Assembly: GCA_000721275.1 (NCBI GenBank)
Contig: JOFO01000003.1
Span: 252,335 to 316,334, forward strand
Direction of reading: 5' to 3'
From: Microtetraspora glauca
GTDB lineage: Bacteria > Actinomycetota > Actinomycetes > Streptomycetales > Streptomycetaceae
DNA: 64,000 nt
Shown here: positions 36,935-42,168 of the stretch, piece after piece
How the letters are laid out: each line of letters starts with the position of its first letter
Position numbering within the stretch: position 1 is the stretch's first letter
Notes under the pieces: generated by a model
The model's input: only the letters and a program-made list of their open reading frames with translations
Told to the model about the DNA's origin: nothing
Database searches by the model: none
Translations under genes and position numbers: made by a program

Positions 36935-37762
36935 TCAGGCGGGCTTCTCGGCGAGCACGTGGAGCTGGGTGGCGACGGCGTGGAAGGCGGCCAGTTCGGC
37001 GGCGGCGGCCTCCAGCTTCAGCAGGGCCTCGGCGGCTCCGGGCTCGGTGTCGACGAGGACGCCGGGCACGAGGTCGGCGAAGATCCGTACGCCGTGGACG
37101 GCCGTCACGGAGAGGCCGGCCTCCTCGGCCAGGCCGGTGAGCTGGTCGGCGGTGAAGCGCCGCGGCACGGGGTCGCCGGCGCCCCAGCGTCCGTCCGGGT
37201 CGCCGAGCGCGGTCCGGGCCTCGGTGAAGTGCCCGGCGAGGGCGCGGGCGAGGACCGCGCCGCCGAGGCCGGCGCCGAGCAGGCTGAGCGCGCCGCCGGG
37301 GCGGAGCGCGGCCACCGTGTGGCGCACGCCTTCGGCGGGGTCGTCCACGTACTCCAGGACGCCGTGGCAGAGCACGGCGTCGTAGGCGCCGCGCTCGACC
37401 ACGTCGAAGAGGCCGCGGACGTCGCCCTGGACGCCGGTCACCAGGTCGGCGACGCCGGCCTCGGCGGCGCGCCGCTCCAGGGCGAAGAGCGCGTTCGGGC
37501 TGGGGTCGACGACGGTGACGCGGTGGCCGAGGCGGGCGACCGGCACCGCGAAGTTGCCGGAGCCGCCGCCGGTGTCCAGGACGTCCAGGGCGGCGTTCCC
37601 GGTGGTGCCGACCCGGCGGTCGAGGGCGTCCTTGAGGACGTCCCAGACGACGGCGGTTCGCAGGGAGGCGCGCGACGGGCGCGACGACGCCTCGCGGCCG
37701 AAGGCGGAGGAAGGGTCCGGCACGGCTCTTGACTCCTCGGTGACGGGTACGGACCTCCCCAC
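36935..37762 (-). CDS. SAM-dependent class I methyltransferase
   Basis: 275 residues. SAM motif I LDTGGGSGNFAVPVARLG (about 62-79), motif II VTGVQGDVRGLFD, motif III GGALSLLGAGLGGAV. The substrate is unknown; the layout is like UbiE/CmoM-type enzymes. GTG 37762 has GGAGG 7 bases upstream; another GTG at 37723 (GAGGAG before it) would give 262 residues. The HEPN gene lies 27 bases upstream on the same strand, so the two may be co-transcribed. Confidence 0.88.
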   Translation of the reverse strand: MGRSVPVTEESRAVPDPSSAFGREASSRPSRASLRTAVVWDVLKDALDRRVGTTGNAALDVLDTGGGSGNFAVPVARLGHRVTVVDPSPNALFALERRAAEAGVADLVTGVQGDVRGLFDVVERGAYDAVLCHGVLEYVDDPAEGVRHTVAALRPGGALSLLGAGLGGAVLARALAGHFTEARTALGDPDGRWGAGDPVPRRFTADQLTGLAEEAGLSVTAVHGVRIFADLVPGVLVDTEPGAAEALLKLEAAAAELAAFHAVATQLHVLAEKPA

Positions 37763-37789: not shown

Positions 37790-38263
37790 TCAGCCGGCGA
37801 CCCCGTCCGCCGGGGGCTGCCGGGGCAGGACCGGCTGGAGCACGAGCAGCCGCTCGACCAGGCGCAGGAAGTGCCCGGCGTCCCTGACGAGGTCGTCGGC
37901 CTCGCGCGGGGTCGCGGCGGCGGCGACCCCGGCCTCGGCGAGGGCCCGGCGCGGGGCTCCGGCGGCGAAGAGGGCGCTCCACTCGGTGAGCTCGGGGGCG
38001 AGCTGCGGCAGCAGCTCCCAGGCGCTCCTTATGGCCTGGCGCCGGCGGGTGCGGGGAACCGGGCGGGCGCGGGCGGCGAGGACGGCCGCGGCGGCACGCA
38101 GGGCGGCGAGGTGCGCGGTGGCGTATCTCTCGTGGGGCCGTTCGAGGCCGGCGGCCTCGTCGAGACCGGCCCGGGCCTTGGCGAGCAGGTCGAGGGCGGC
38201 GGGCGGGGCGGTGGTCCGGCGGGACACGGGATGGACGTCGGCTGCTGCGAAAGGACTGGCCAT
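37790..38263 (-). CDS. SAV_6107-type HEPN-domain protein
   Basis: 157-residue, mostly helical protein rich in Ala, Arg and Leu. It has the features of the actinobacterial SAV_6107 HEPN family (HERYATAHLAALRAAAAVLAARARP). The RNase motif RxxxxH of toxic HEPNs is not seen, so a nuclease role is unsupported. ATG 38263 is divergent from the ABC/YhgE operon, whose operator is about 115 bases away. Its own promoter would lie within 38264-38376. Confidence 0.7.
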   Translation of the reverse strand: MASPFAAADVHPVSRRTTAPPAALDLLAKARAGLDEAAGLERPHERYATAHLAALRAAAAVLAARARPVPRTRRRQAIRSAWELLPQLAPELTEWSALFAAGAPRRALAEAGVAAAATPREADDLVRDAGHFLRLVERLLVLQPVLPRQPPADGVAG

Positions 38264-38351
38264 GACGAGCCTCCTGTCGTCGGGTGACGGTCTTGTCGCC
38301 GTCTGTGCCCATCGTGCCGCCCGCCACTGACAATGGGCCTGACCTGGGGTT

Positions 38352-38406
38352 TTGCGGGCTGGGCGGCGACCTTGTAACTTTTGGACTGACCAGTCAGTCC
38401 AAAAGT
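38352..38406 (+). promoter_or_regulatory. Promoter and TetR-type operator of the ABC-YhgE-TetR operon
   Basis: -35 TTGCGG (38352-38357) and -10 TAACTT (38375-38380) are separated by 17 bases. An inverted repeat with perfect 14-bp arms, ACTTTTGGACTGAC (38377-38390) and its complement (38393-38406), spaced by CA, overlaps the -10 and the expected start site. Such a dyad fits a TetR-family repressor, and a TetR gene ends this operon. Confidence 0.85.
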
Positions 38407-38425
38407 GGAACCGGGGGGTGGATCC

Positions 38426-39400
38426 GTGGGATCCGAGGACCTGACCACACGACCGTCTCCGGACGGGCCCGGCGGGGAGCCCGGCACCGACGGCACCGAC
38501 GGCGCCGATCACACCGACGGCACCGCTCTCGCCGACGGCGCCGAGCGCATCGATCACGCCGACCGCACCGATCACGCCGAGCGCACCGACCACACCGGCC
38601 CCGGCGGCTCCGGCCCCGGCGCCGAGGTCGTGGCCGAGGGGCTGGGCCTCAAGGGCCCGCGCGGCTGGGCCTTCCGGGACGTGTCCTTCCGCGCCGGGGC
38701 CGGCGCGCTGGTCGCGCTGGAGGGCCCGTCCGGGACCGGCCGCACCTGCCTGCTGCTCGCCCTCACCGGCCGGATGAAGACCGCCGAGGGCCGCGCCGAG
38801 GTCGGCGGCCTGCCGCTGCCGCGCCGGATGGCCGCCGTGCGCCGGATCGCCGCGCTCGGCCAGGTCCCCGGCGTCAGCGAGCTCGACCCGTCGCTCACGG
38901 TCGCCGAGCACCTGCGCGAGCGGGCCCTGCTCCAGCGCCGGTTCGACGGCTCGGTCCGCGCGCTGCTCCGCCGCCCCGGCACCCGGGCCGCCGAGACCCG
39001 GGCGCGGATCGACGAGGCGCTGGCCGCCGCCGGACTGGACCTCGCCGCCCTGCCGAAGGGCGAGCGGACCTCCGTACGCGACCTGGAACGGCTGGAGGCC
39101 CTGCGCCTGTCGATCGCGCTGGCCCTGATGGGGCGGCCCCGGGTGCTGGGCGTGGACGACACGGACCTGAAGCTGTCGGACGCCGACCGGGCCGCTGCCT
39201 GGGCGCTGCTGCGCTCGGTGGCCGCCGCGGGCACCACCGTCCTCGCGGTGTGCAGCGAGGCGCCCGCCGACGCCCTGCGGATCACCACGGTCGCCGCCGC
39301 CCCGCGAGGGGACGAGCGGGCCCCGGAAGCCGCCGACGACGAAGACGACATCACCGAGGAGGGGGCGGACGATGCGCTCGCCGAAACTGGCCGCGCTTGA
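38426..39400 (+). CDS. Degenerate ABC-transporter ATP-binding protein, partner of YhgE/Pip
   Basis: 324-residue ABC NBD-like protein. The P-loop is GPSGTGRT (100-107), so the Walker A lysine is arginine (R106). The Q-loop glutamine is kept (Q146). There is no LSGGQ signature: the equivalent stretch is VRDLERLEALRLSI. Walker B reads RVLGVDD (D244-D245, no catalytic Glu), and the H-loop His is missing (AVCSEAP). Residues 20-60 are repeated D-H/G-T. GTG 38426 is chosen because GGGGGGTGG lies upstream; GTG 38405 falls inside the operator. It overlaps yhgE by 29 bases. Confidence 0.85.
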   Translation: MGSEDLTTRPSPDGPGGEPGTDGTDGADHTDGTALADGAERIDHADRTDHAERTDHTGPGGSGPGAEVVAEGLGLKGPRGWAFRDVSFRAGAGALVALEGPSGTGRTCLLLALTGRMKTAEGRAEVGGLPLPRRMAAVRRIAALGQVPGVSELDPSLTVAEHLRERALLQRRFDGSVRALLRRPGTRAAETRARIDEALAAAGLDLAALPKGERTSVRDLERLEALRLSIALALMGRPRVLGVDDTDLKLSDADRAAAWALLRSVAAAGTTVLAVCSEAPADALRITTVAAAPRGDERAPEAADDEDDITEEGADDALAETGRA

Positions 39401-41522
39401 GCTGAGGCGCTTCGGCAGGGGCAAGCTGCCGCGCGCCGCGCTCGTCGCGGTCCTGCTGCTGCCGCTGCTGTACGGCGCCCTGTACCTGTACTCGTTCTGG
39501 GACCCGTACGGCAGGCTCGACAAGCTGCCCGTCGCCCTGGTCAACGAGGACCGCGGCGCCACCGCCGACGGCAAGCGGATCACCGCGGGCGCCGACATCA
39601 CCGAGGGGCTGCTCGACAGCGGGACCTTCGAGTGGCACGAGGTCAGCGACGCCGAGGCCCGCGAGGGCGTCGAGGACGGCACGTACTACCTGTCGCTGAC
39701 CGTCCCCCGCGACTTCAGCGAGCGGATCGCGTCCAGCTCCGGGGACTCCCCGGAGACCGGCGCCCTGCAGGTCCGGACGAACGACTCCAACAACTACATC
39801 GTCGGCCAGATCTCCCGGACCGTCTTCGCCGAGGTGCGCACCGCCGCCTCCACCAAGTCGTCCCGGACCTTCCTCGACAAGATCTTCATCTCCTTCTCCG
39901 ACATCCACGAGGCCACCGCCGAGGCCGCCAAGGGCGCCGCCGACCTGAAGAAGGGCGTGGACAAGGCCAAGAAGGGCTCCAAGGACCTCTCCGAGGGCCT
40001 CACCGACGCCAAGGCCGGCAGCAGCGACCTGGCCGCCGGCCTGAAGAAGCTCGACAAGGGCTCCAAGGACGTCCAGACCGGCACCCGCCAGGTCGCGAAC
40101 GGCACCCAGGCGCTCGCCGACAAGGTCAACGGCACCGCCGACAAGGTCCGCCCCTACCTGGCGAACAACGGCACGTCGATCCGCGACACCGCCAAGCTCG
40201 TCTCCGACTCCGCCACGGCCGCGCGCAACGACCTGGCCGACCTGGTCCGCCGCGCCCCGCAGCTGCGCACGGCCGCCCACACGGCGGACGACACCCTCGC
40301 CCGGCTGCACCGCACGTCCTGCGAGAAGCCCGGCGCCACCGACCCGCCGAAGATCGAGCTGCCGGAGGGCGTCACCCTGCCCGAGGGGTTCGTCCTGCCC
40401 GACACGAAGCAGTACTGCTCCGCCCTGAAGGAGGCGTCGACCACCGCCGGCGACGTCGCCACCATCGCGGACGACGTGCACCAGCTGACCAAGGACAGCA
40501 AGGGCGACCTGAAGACGCTCGACGCGCGCCTGAAGAAGCTCAAGAAGGAGGCCGACGAGCTGGCCGCCCGCGCCCCGCACCTGGACGAGGACGTGGAGGG
40601 CGCCATCCGGAAGATCAACGAGCTCAACCGGGGCGCGAAGAAGGTCGCCGACGGCGCCGAGCGGCTCCACACCGGCATCACCGGCGCCCGCGCGGGCTCG
40701 GTCAGCCTGGACAGCGGCGTCGGCAAGCTGAAGAAGGGCGCCGGCGACCTCGACGGCGGCCTGTTCAAGTTGGCCGACGGCTCCGGCTCGCTCGCCACCG
40801 GCCTCAAGGACGGCGTCGGCAAGATCCCGGACTACGACAAGGACGAGCGGGACCGGCGCACGGAGGTCATGGCCGACCCGGTGAAGCTGGCCGCCCAGTC
40901 GCTCCACAAGGCGCCCAACTACGGCACGGGCTTCGCCCCGTACTTCATCCCGCTCTCCCTCTGGGTCGGCGCCATGGTCGCCTACATGATCATCCAGCCG
41001 ATGAACCGGCGGGCCCTCGCCGCCGGCGCCTCCGCCTGGCGGATCGCGCTGGCCGGCTGGCTCCCGGTGGCCGCGATCGGCGTCCTCCAGGTCGGCGCGC
41101 TGCTGGCCGTCCTGCACTGGGGACTCGGCCTGGAGATGGCCAGGGCGGCCGGGACGGTCGGCTTCCTCGCCCTCGTGACCTGCTGCTTCGCCGCGATCAT
41201 CCAGTGGCTGAACGCCCGCTTCGGCGCGGCCGGCCGGATCCTCGTCCTGGCGCTGCTCATGGTCCAGCTGACCTCGGCGGGCGGCACCTACCCCGTGCAG
41301 ACCAGCCCGGGCTTCTTCAACGCCGTCCACCCGTTCCTGCCGATGACCCACGTGGTCGAGGCGCTGCGCCGGCTGATCTCCGGCGGCGGGCTCGGACCGG
41401 TCTGGGAGGCCGTGGCCGTCCTGACCGCCTTCACCCTGGGCGCGCTCGCCCTGACCGCGGTCACCGCGCGCCGCAAGCAGGTGTGGACGCTGGACCGGCT
41501 CCACCCGGAGCTGTCGCTGTGA
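39372..41522 (+). CDS. YhgE/Pip-family membrane protein (ABC-2 type permease)
   Basis: 716 residues. One N-terminal TM (about 20-42), then a large extracellular domain (about 45-510) with repeated helical Lys/Gly/Asp segments (DLKKGVDKAKKGSKDLSEGL) typical of YhgE/Pip and related to EsaA of type VII secretion; a C-terminal ABC-2-like block of about 5 TM helices (about 520-700). The best-known Pip is a phage receptor; family members also act in export. It starts within the ABC gene, and a TetR gene follows 34 bases downstream. Confidence 0.9.
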   Translation: MRSPKLAALELRRFGRGKLPRAALVAVLLLPLLYGALYLYSFWDPYGRLDKLPVALVNEDRGATADGKRITAGADITEGLLDSGTFEWHEVSDAEAREGVEDGTYYLSLTVPRDFSERIASSSGDSPETGALQVRTNDSNNYIVGQISRTVFAEVRTAASTKSSRTFLDKIFISFSDIHEATAEAAKGAADLKKGVDKAKKGSKDLSEGLTDAKAGSSDLAAGLKKLDKGSKDVQTGTRQVANGTQALADKVNGTADKVRPYLANNGTSIRDTAKLVSDSATAARNDLADLVRRAPQLRTAAHTADDTLARLHRTSCEKPGATDPPKIELPEGVTLPEGFVLPDTKQYCSALKEASTTAGDVATIADDVHQLTKDSKGDLKTLDARLKKLKKEADELAARAPHLDEDVEGAIRKINELNRGAKKVADGAERLHTGITGARAGSVSLDSGVGKLKKGAGDLDGGLFKLADGSGSLATGLKDGVGKIPDYDKDERDRRTEVMADPVKLAAQSLHKAPNYGTGFAPYFIPLSLWVGAMVAYMIIQPMNRRALAAGASAWRIALAGWLPVAAIGVLQVGALLAVLHWGLGLEMARAAGTVGFLALVTCCFAAIIQWLNARFGAAGRILVLALLMVQLTSAGGTYPVQTSPGFFNAVHPFLPMTHVVEALRRLISGGGLGPVWEAVAVLTAFTLGALALTAVTARRKQVWTLDRLHPELSL

Positions 41523-41556
41523 ACCGACCCGTACCGGCTCTGTGAGAATCGACCCC

Positions 41557-42168
41557 ATGGACAGCAGCAGCACCCGCCGCCAGGCGACCCGCGCCAAGCT
41601 CTACGAGGCGGCCGTCACCCTCATCGCCGAGCAGGGCTTCTCGGCGACCACGGTCGACGAGATCGCCGACCGGGCCGGGGTGGCCAAGGGCACGGTCTAC
41701 TACAACTTCAAGAGCAAGACCGAGCTCTTCGAGGAGCTGCTGCGCCACGGCGTCTCGCTGCTCACCGCCTCGCTGCGGACCGCCGCCGAGGACACCGAGG
41801 CCCGGGGCGGCACCCGGGTCGCCGCGCTGGACGCGATGATCCGCGCGGGACTCGTCTTCATCGACCGCTACCCGGCCTTCACCCAGCTGTACGTGGCCGA
41901 GCTCTGGCGCACCAACCGGGCGTGGAACTCCACCCTCCTCGTCGTCCGCCAGGAAGCCGTCGCGGTCGTGGAGGGCGTCCTGCGCGCGGGCGTCGAGGAG
42001 GGCGAGCTGAGCGAGGAGATCGACGTCCCGCTGACGGCGGCGGCGCTGGTCGGCATGGTCCTGGTGGCCGCGCTCGACTGGAAGGCGTTCCAGAGCGAGC
42101 GCTCCCTGGACGACGTCCACGCGGCGCTGTCGCTGCTGCTGCACGGCCGCGTGGGCGGGGGCCGCTGA
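41557..42168 (+). CDS. TetR/AcrR-family repressor, likely of its own operon
   Basis: 203 residues (M at 41557; an in-frame GTG at 41542 would add five). N-terminal HTH: EAAVTLIAEQGFSATTVDEIADRAGVAKGTVYYNFKSK, the TetR signature. The C-terminal ligand domain is all helical (TetR_C). ATG 41557 lies 7 bases after a GAGAAT -10-like hexamer, so a second, leaderless promoter is possible. The 30-bp palindrome at 38377-38406 upstream of the operon is its most likely target; autoregulation is inference. Confidence 0.9.
   Translation: MDSSSTRRQATRAKLYEAAVTLIAEQGFSATTVDEIADRAGVAKGTVYYNFKSKTELFEELLRHGVSLLTASLRTAAEDTEARGGTRVAALDAMIRAGLVFIDRYPAFTQLYVAELWRTNRAWNSTLLVVRQEAVAVVEGVLRAGVEEGELSEEIDVPLTAAALVGMVLVAALDWKAFQSERSLDDVHAALSLLLHGRVGGGR

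Follow-up and report, generated by a model that had tools for sequence, protein, structure and literature searches.

The operon described here lies in the window, the whole stretch of 64,000 nucleotides that was analysed, and encodes a degenerate ABC nucleotide-binding (NBD) protein together with a membrane protein of the YhgE/Pip family. The genome is of the Streptomyces type, the named relatives being Streptomyces. As read from sequence and a structural model, the ABC fold of the NBD protein is kept, its catalytic residues are lost throughout the family as sampled, its pairing with the permease is fixed, and purifying selection acts on it. We consider it rather likely that the protein is a pseudo-ATPase and a dedicated YhgE/Pip partner that docks on, stabilises or gates the permease without hydrolysis, in an operon repressed by its TetR, and that the permease works without a motor or with another source of energy. 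In public records these proteins are called ATP-binding cassette proteins, implying a working pump. Conservation points instead to a widespread, operon-encoded ABC partner without any of the usual catalytic residues.

Layout and regulation of the operon

The features of the operon are listed below by position in the window and strand.

38377..38406, no strand: 30-bp perfect palindrome ACTTTTGGACTGAC-CA-GTCAGTCCAAAAGT, probable operator, with its end 19 bases upstream of the GTG
38413..38418, +: GGGGGG, read from the sequence as the probable ribosome binding site for the NBD
38426..39400, +: NBD gene (degenerate ABC nucleotide-binding protein), GTG start at 38426, 324 aa
38482..38597, +: tandem repeat in the coding frame, units of 9, 18, 27 and 45 bp (TRF), translated as the acidic D-H-T N-terminus
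38723..38746, +: Walker A, GPSGTGRT, with R106 (38741-38743) replacing Lys; Arg in 200/200 and 120/120 relatives
39056..39112, +: segment K-G-x-R-T-x-V-R-D-L-E-R-x-E-A-L-R-L-S replacing the LSGGQ signature; aligns with the ABCA3/ABCA4 signature
39143..39166, +: Walker B, ending D244-D245, with D245 at the catalytic Glu position, where the canonical DEP aligns; Asp in 200/200 at both
39236..39259, +: H-loop position without His (Ser277); Ser 184, Ala 10, Gly 4, Arg 2 of 200
39372..41522, +: YhgE/Pip membrane protein gene, 716 aa, with TIGR03061, TIGR03062 and PF12698 matches
41542..42168, +: last of the three genes, a TetR-family regulator, PF00440 at 70.9 bits

The NBD coordinates, R106 and the 29-base overlap between the NBD and permease genes, all given in an earlier note, were recovered, with the permease ATG at 39372. 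The gene order NBD, permease, TetR on one strand was observed in all 80 Streptomyces loci. With a tolerance of up to 3 mismatches, the window contains a single copy of the 22-bp core of the palindrome, and 100 shuffles contained none. Additionally, ACTGAC-NN-GTCAGT is present within 220 bases 5' of the NBD domain in 81 of 81 sequences, the 80 loci and the window. Because of this position and conservation, the palindrome is probably the operator of the operon's own TetR, suggesting autoregulation. A literature search with the operator string found no paper.

Upstream of the operon, a SAV_6107-type HEPN gene, matched by PF18726 at 119.6 bits, runs in the opposite direction at 37790-38287 (-). 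It adjoins a methyltransferase gene at 36935-37762 (-), relatives of which are present in 78 of the 80 loci. Divergent NBD-YhgE/Pip pairs also exist in other genomes of the family (L198-L203 and L223), with Walker A Arg there too; in G413 (L202) and G037 (L223) the divergent pair is a second one beside the usual pair.

Fold and catalytic positions of the NBD protein

The NBD protein matched Pfam ABC_tran at 47.5 bits, against a cut-off of 25, and its ABC nucleotide-binding fold is intact in the predicted structure. The earlier note had described a kept ABC fold, in agreement with this model, in which Arg takes the place of the Walker A Lys and the LSGGQ signature, the Walker B glutamate and the H-loop His are missing, but the Walker B aspartates and the Q-loop are retained. 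Most of this description stands: R106 occupies the Lys position, L-E-R-L-E the signature position, D245 the catalytic Glu position and Ser277 the H-loop position, and both Walker B aspartates are kept. The Q-loop is the exception, as profile alignment to ABCA3 and ABCA4 places Gly149 at the canonical Gln. Gln146, probably the residue meant in that description, precedes this position by three residues and varies among relatives (Gln 120, His 66, Pro 11 and Asn 3 of 200).

Eleven or more positions of the segment that replaces the signature (K, R, T, V, R, D, L, R, L, R and L) are invariant in 200/200 sequences. In canonical NBDs the signature neighbourhood lies near the coupling helices, and from its sequence the segment is a candidate contact surface. 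The Arg at Walker A is not the background state of the genome, since Walker A Lys was present in 20 of 20 other ABC NBDs sampled from the 30 matches in the same genome. In these controls the signature was called in 14/20, Glu in 17/20 and His in 10/20, by simple patterns applied to excised stretches; some real motifs were overlooked in this way.

The acidic D-H-T N-terminus, previously pointed out as unusual, is a real stretch but a product of a local DNA tandem repeat. The repeat is absent from the close relative P0005 and, among 18 aligned proteins, is present only in that of the window. Residues 21-62 mostly have pLDDT below 50 and are predicted to be mostly disordered.

Relatives of the NBD protein

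The survey of NBDs comprised 76 loci, 60 around matches to the family profile and 16 from a survey of the phylum. The permease gene lies 3' of the NBD on the same strand in 72 of the 76, and a TetR gene follows the permease in 50 of the 76, with some loci cut by contig or stretch ends. Only those 72 loci, in which the NBD is directly upstream of the YhgE/Pip gene, were counted; the other four (L265, L266, L268 and L269), which lack a YhgE/Pip match and whose motifs look canonical, had been left out. The Walker A residue was Arg in 61, Lys in 8 and Gln in 3, where L260 and L261 were scored as Gln though Lys stands one residue further on. Glu occurred at the catalytic position in none of the 72 (Asp 59, Asn 7, Gly 4, Ser 1, His 1), and neither the SGG core at the signature nor the H-loop His was present in any of them. 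The genomes sampled from f1 (Streptomycetaceae-type) and f19 have Arg, as do some of the f6 loci, and Lys is found in L215, L217, L220, L221 and the f64 loci L254-L257. The P-loop is broken in L259-L261, L303 and L305.

It can be seen that, of the two traits whose conservation the earlier note had asked about, the missing signature is universal among these NBDs and the Arg is only partly conserved. Given the complete absence of Glu, SGG and His and the mixture of Walker A residues, the loss of signature, Glu and His looks like a trait of the YhgE/Pip-linked family as sampled, and the Arg appears to be one of several Walker A states that vary by lineage. A tree built from 58 sequences set the 51 members of the family apart from seven canonical NBDs (support 85). 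L254, L255 and L257, which carry Lys, were placed on a long branch within an Arg group (support 60), in a tree of which several deep nodes are weak and the branching of the Lys and Arg groups is poorly resolved. Because of this placement, the two residues may have replaced one another, and the idea that the Arg arose only once was considered and not accepted.

Among closer relatives, 200 sequences were aligned, 80 from the Streptomyces loci and 120 database proteins, sets that may share strains; P0003, the record of the window itself, and another record at 99% identity are among them. The Walker A Arg, Thr107 and the catalytic-position Asp were each present in 200/200. Also, G110, G112, R113 and T114 (P0001 numbering), the G-x-G-R-T of the P-loop, were invariant in these 200 Streptomyces-type sequences. 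In a more distant set, the 120 best of 546 matches, 46-100% identical to the L206 query, Arg was present in 120/120, the catalytic position was Asp in 61 and Asn in 58 with one gap, and His was present at the H-loop column in 4/120.

Selection on the operon was estimated by the Nei-Gojobori method. Comparison with the five closest loci gave dN/dS of 0.18-0.26 (NBD), 0.14-0.27 (permease) and 0.07-0.13 (TetR); the medians over all 80 loci were higher, at 0.41, 0.43 and 0.26, respectively. The claim that the NBD is kept under selection agrees with the values for the five closest loci, which indicate purifying selection similar to that on the permease. Both genes were counted in 55 genomes of the window's genus; some of the genome-level matches contain one internal stop codon (e.g. 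G077, G074 and G067). Eight genomes of the genus were listed without the NBD, and the permease match was absent in 7 of them and weak in the other, G044.

That the NBD gene is decaying and heading for loss is hardly credible. Some genomes of the genus do match neither gene, as decay would allow, but the NBD and permease are retained or lost jointly, all aligned relatives are in the same state, and the dN/dS is near that of the permease. Close homologues with an intact Lys and LSGGQ, which the earlier note took as the mark of a decaying copy, were sought and not found among the 200 and 120 relatives, in all of which the residue is Arg. Decay was rejected on these counts and on the dN/dS.

It might also be supposed that the protein is an unusual active ATPase, in which Arg serves for Lys, D245 or other conserved acids serve for Glu, and KGxRTxVRDL is a new signature. 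Few parts of the protein are indeed as conserved as this segment, and the Arg and the D-D pair are fixed in 200/200. Nevertheless, changes of Lys to Arg at Walker A usually cripple hydrolysis, the P-loop is also lost in some relatives, and Glu, the SGG core and the H-loop His are jointly absent in 72/72. An active enzyme is thus quite unlikely.

The permease, its associations and the proposed role

The permease scored above the cut-offs of both YhgE/Pip models (TIGR03061, 193 against 96.15 bits; TIGR03062, 238.8 against 102.2) and above the gathering scores of the ABC-2 permease families (PF12698, 97.6 against 31.6 bits; PF01061, 30.5 against 26.9). It stayed below the cut-off for EsaA of type VII secretion (TIGR03929, 57.4 bits against 122). 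The predicted structure of the permease is poor, with pLDDT 54.6, below use for comparison with other folds, and for this reason neither a complex nor a coupling helix is claimed.

Twenty stretches around YhgE/Pip genes were found with TIGR03062 in a draw from the phylum. In 17 of the 20 no family NBD adjoins the YhgE/Pip gene. Among these, L314 is cut by a contig end on the side where an NBD is to be expected, and L311, L313 and L317 include an ABC match that is not beside the gene. L303 and L305 have a degenerate family NBD beside the gene, and L304 has a doubtful match only. Among the stretches without the NBD, three f86 loci have YhgE/Pip and TetR, L306, L313 and L314 have a single YhgE/Pip gene in the stretch, and eleven loci of f57, f64 and f78 (L307-L312 and L315-L319) have tandem YhgE/Pip pairs, an arrangement that suggests heterodimers.

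A different association is seen in L215 (1326-4223, +) and L217 (3381-6263, -), where an MMPL transporter carries the family NBD at its C-terminus and is directly followed by a YhgE/Pip gene; the MMPL part in L217 matched PF03176 with E 9.6e-88. A search for such fusions, deliberately confined to proteins of about the same length, listed 98 matches, of which 85 (P0244-P0328) carry PF03176 and 83 of these also PF00005. Many of the MMPL-NBD proteins listed are named Aeromicrobium. Walker A Lys was present in 83 of the 85, and the catalytic position was Asp in 80, Gly in 4 and Asn in 1. An LSGGQ-like string was present somewhere in the last 300 residues in 6/85, and the third residue at the signature column was never Gly (85/85). 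P0326, in which MMPL, ABC and YhgE domains share one reading frame, was rejected as evidence of a triple fusion because it looks out of frame inside the NBD; it remains among the 85. The Aeromicrobium-type proteins thus resemble the window in having an NBD of this family and a downstream YhgE/Pip gene, and differ in being fused to a PF03176 transporter and in keeping the Lys. With the MMPL query, no match was obtained in the window, the 80 Streptomyces loci, the other 74 survey loci or the 20 YhgE/Pip loci, and therefore the coupling seems specific to the Aeromicrobium-type lineage as sampled. The fusion hints that, in this one lineage, there may be coupling to a transporter driven by protons. 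A wider form of this idea is that YhgE/Pip proteins are ATP-uncoupled proteins of the ABC-2 fold and the pseudo-NBD is an adaptor to other machinery, physically joining, in the Aeromicrobium type, a proton-driven MMPL to the YhgE/Pip permease as an RND/ABC-2 hybrid in which no ATP is hydrolysed; we regard this as unlikely.

Nucleotide binding may still matter, since the G-x-G-R-T of the P-loop is invariant in the 200 sequences and Lys is kept in 8/72 and 83/85. One alternative, which we judge somewhat unlikely, is a nucleotide sensor, in which the P-loop binds ATP or another nucleotide without hydrolysis and the permease is opened or closed by the nucleotide level. The four invariant P-loop residues, the Arg of all 120 distant proteins and the Lys of the f64 loci and the MMPL fusions are in keeping with such a role. 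Against it, the broken P-loops of L259-L261, L303 and L305 argue that binding is no general need, and no conserved signature is present to close the nucleotide sandwich.

To return to the pseudo-ATPase reading, the NBD protein is probably a fixed or regulatory subunit and not the engine, because many actinobacteria retain relatives that lack the same residues. Weighing against this reading are the H-loop His in 4/120 distant proteins, the LSGGQ-like string in 6/85 MMPL proteins and the higher median dN/dS over all 80 loci. Most likely a dimer of the protein would sit against the cytoplasmic face of the permease, which is ABC-2-like, and would stabilise or gate it, leaving ATP unhydrolysed. The TetR encoded in the operon would act on the palindrome as repressor, and a ligand of the TetR would bring about induction. 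The broken P-loops, together with the YhgE/Pip genes that have no such NBD, argue that ATP hydrolysis by the NBD partner is not what drives the permease. Since many YhgE/Pip genes lack an adjoining family NBD, the permease may work motor-free or take its energy from another source.

Several known systems can be compared with this operon. ABC-2 exporters with ABCA/DrrA-like NBDs (PF00005 with PF12698) are among the closest, and the NBD of the window differs from theirs in having no Lys, LSGGQ, Glu, H-loop His or Q-loop Gln. Heterodimeric ABC exporters, such as TAP and TM287/288, keep one intact site. They share with the window a conserved site without catalytic residues, but the operon of the window encodes a single NBD. 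Degenerate nucleotide sites of such exporters are the subject of one report (PMC7756269). The permease belongs by both models to the YhgE/Pip family, which includes the phage infection proteins of Bacillota; PIP is classified as TC 9.B.74, with ABC-2 homologues, in the excerpt of PMC3924187. Enterococcus PIP is described in the accessible part of PMC4999554 as having a YhgE/PIP domain of unknown function and a second transport domain, with an NBD unmentioned in that part; unlike it, the permease of the window has a dedicated pseudo-NBD gene.

The literature search, which left subscription journals mostly outside its scope, gave no account of a non-catalytic NBD beside YhgE/Pip. As far as can be told, a lone pseudo-NBD kept across many actinobacterial families is new, and degenerate sites of heterodimers are known. 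If the pseudo-ATPase reading is true, the operon offers a testable model for an ABC-2-like permease operating without a motor, the MMPL fusion becomes a lead on the coupling partner of YhgE/Pip, and YhgE/Pip, described without known function in the text available of PMC4999554, gains a defined subunit.

A link of YhgE with fatty acids was also considered. The excerpts of two reports mention YhgE mutations in Enterococcus nonsensitive to ginkgolic acid (PMC8754111) and down-regulation of one YhgE/Pip-like gene under lauric acid (PMC5816558), and the link was judged too thin to use. In Streptomyces lincolnensis, a TetR and an adjoining resistance gene (SLCG_2919/SLCG_2920), described in the available part of PMC10717218, are candidates for a possible orthologue.
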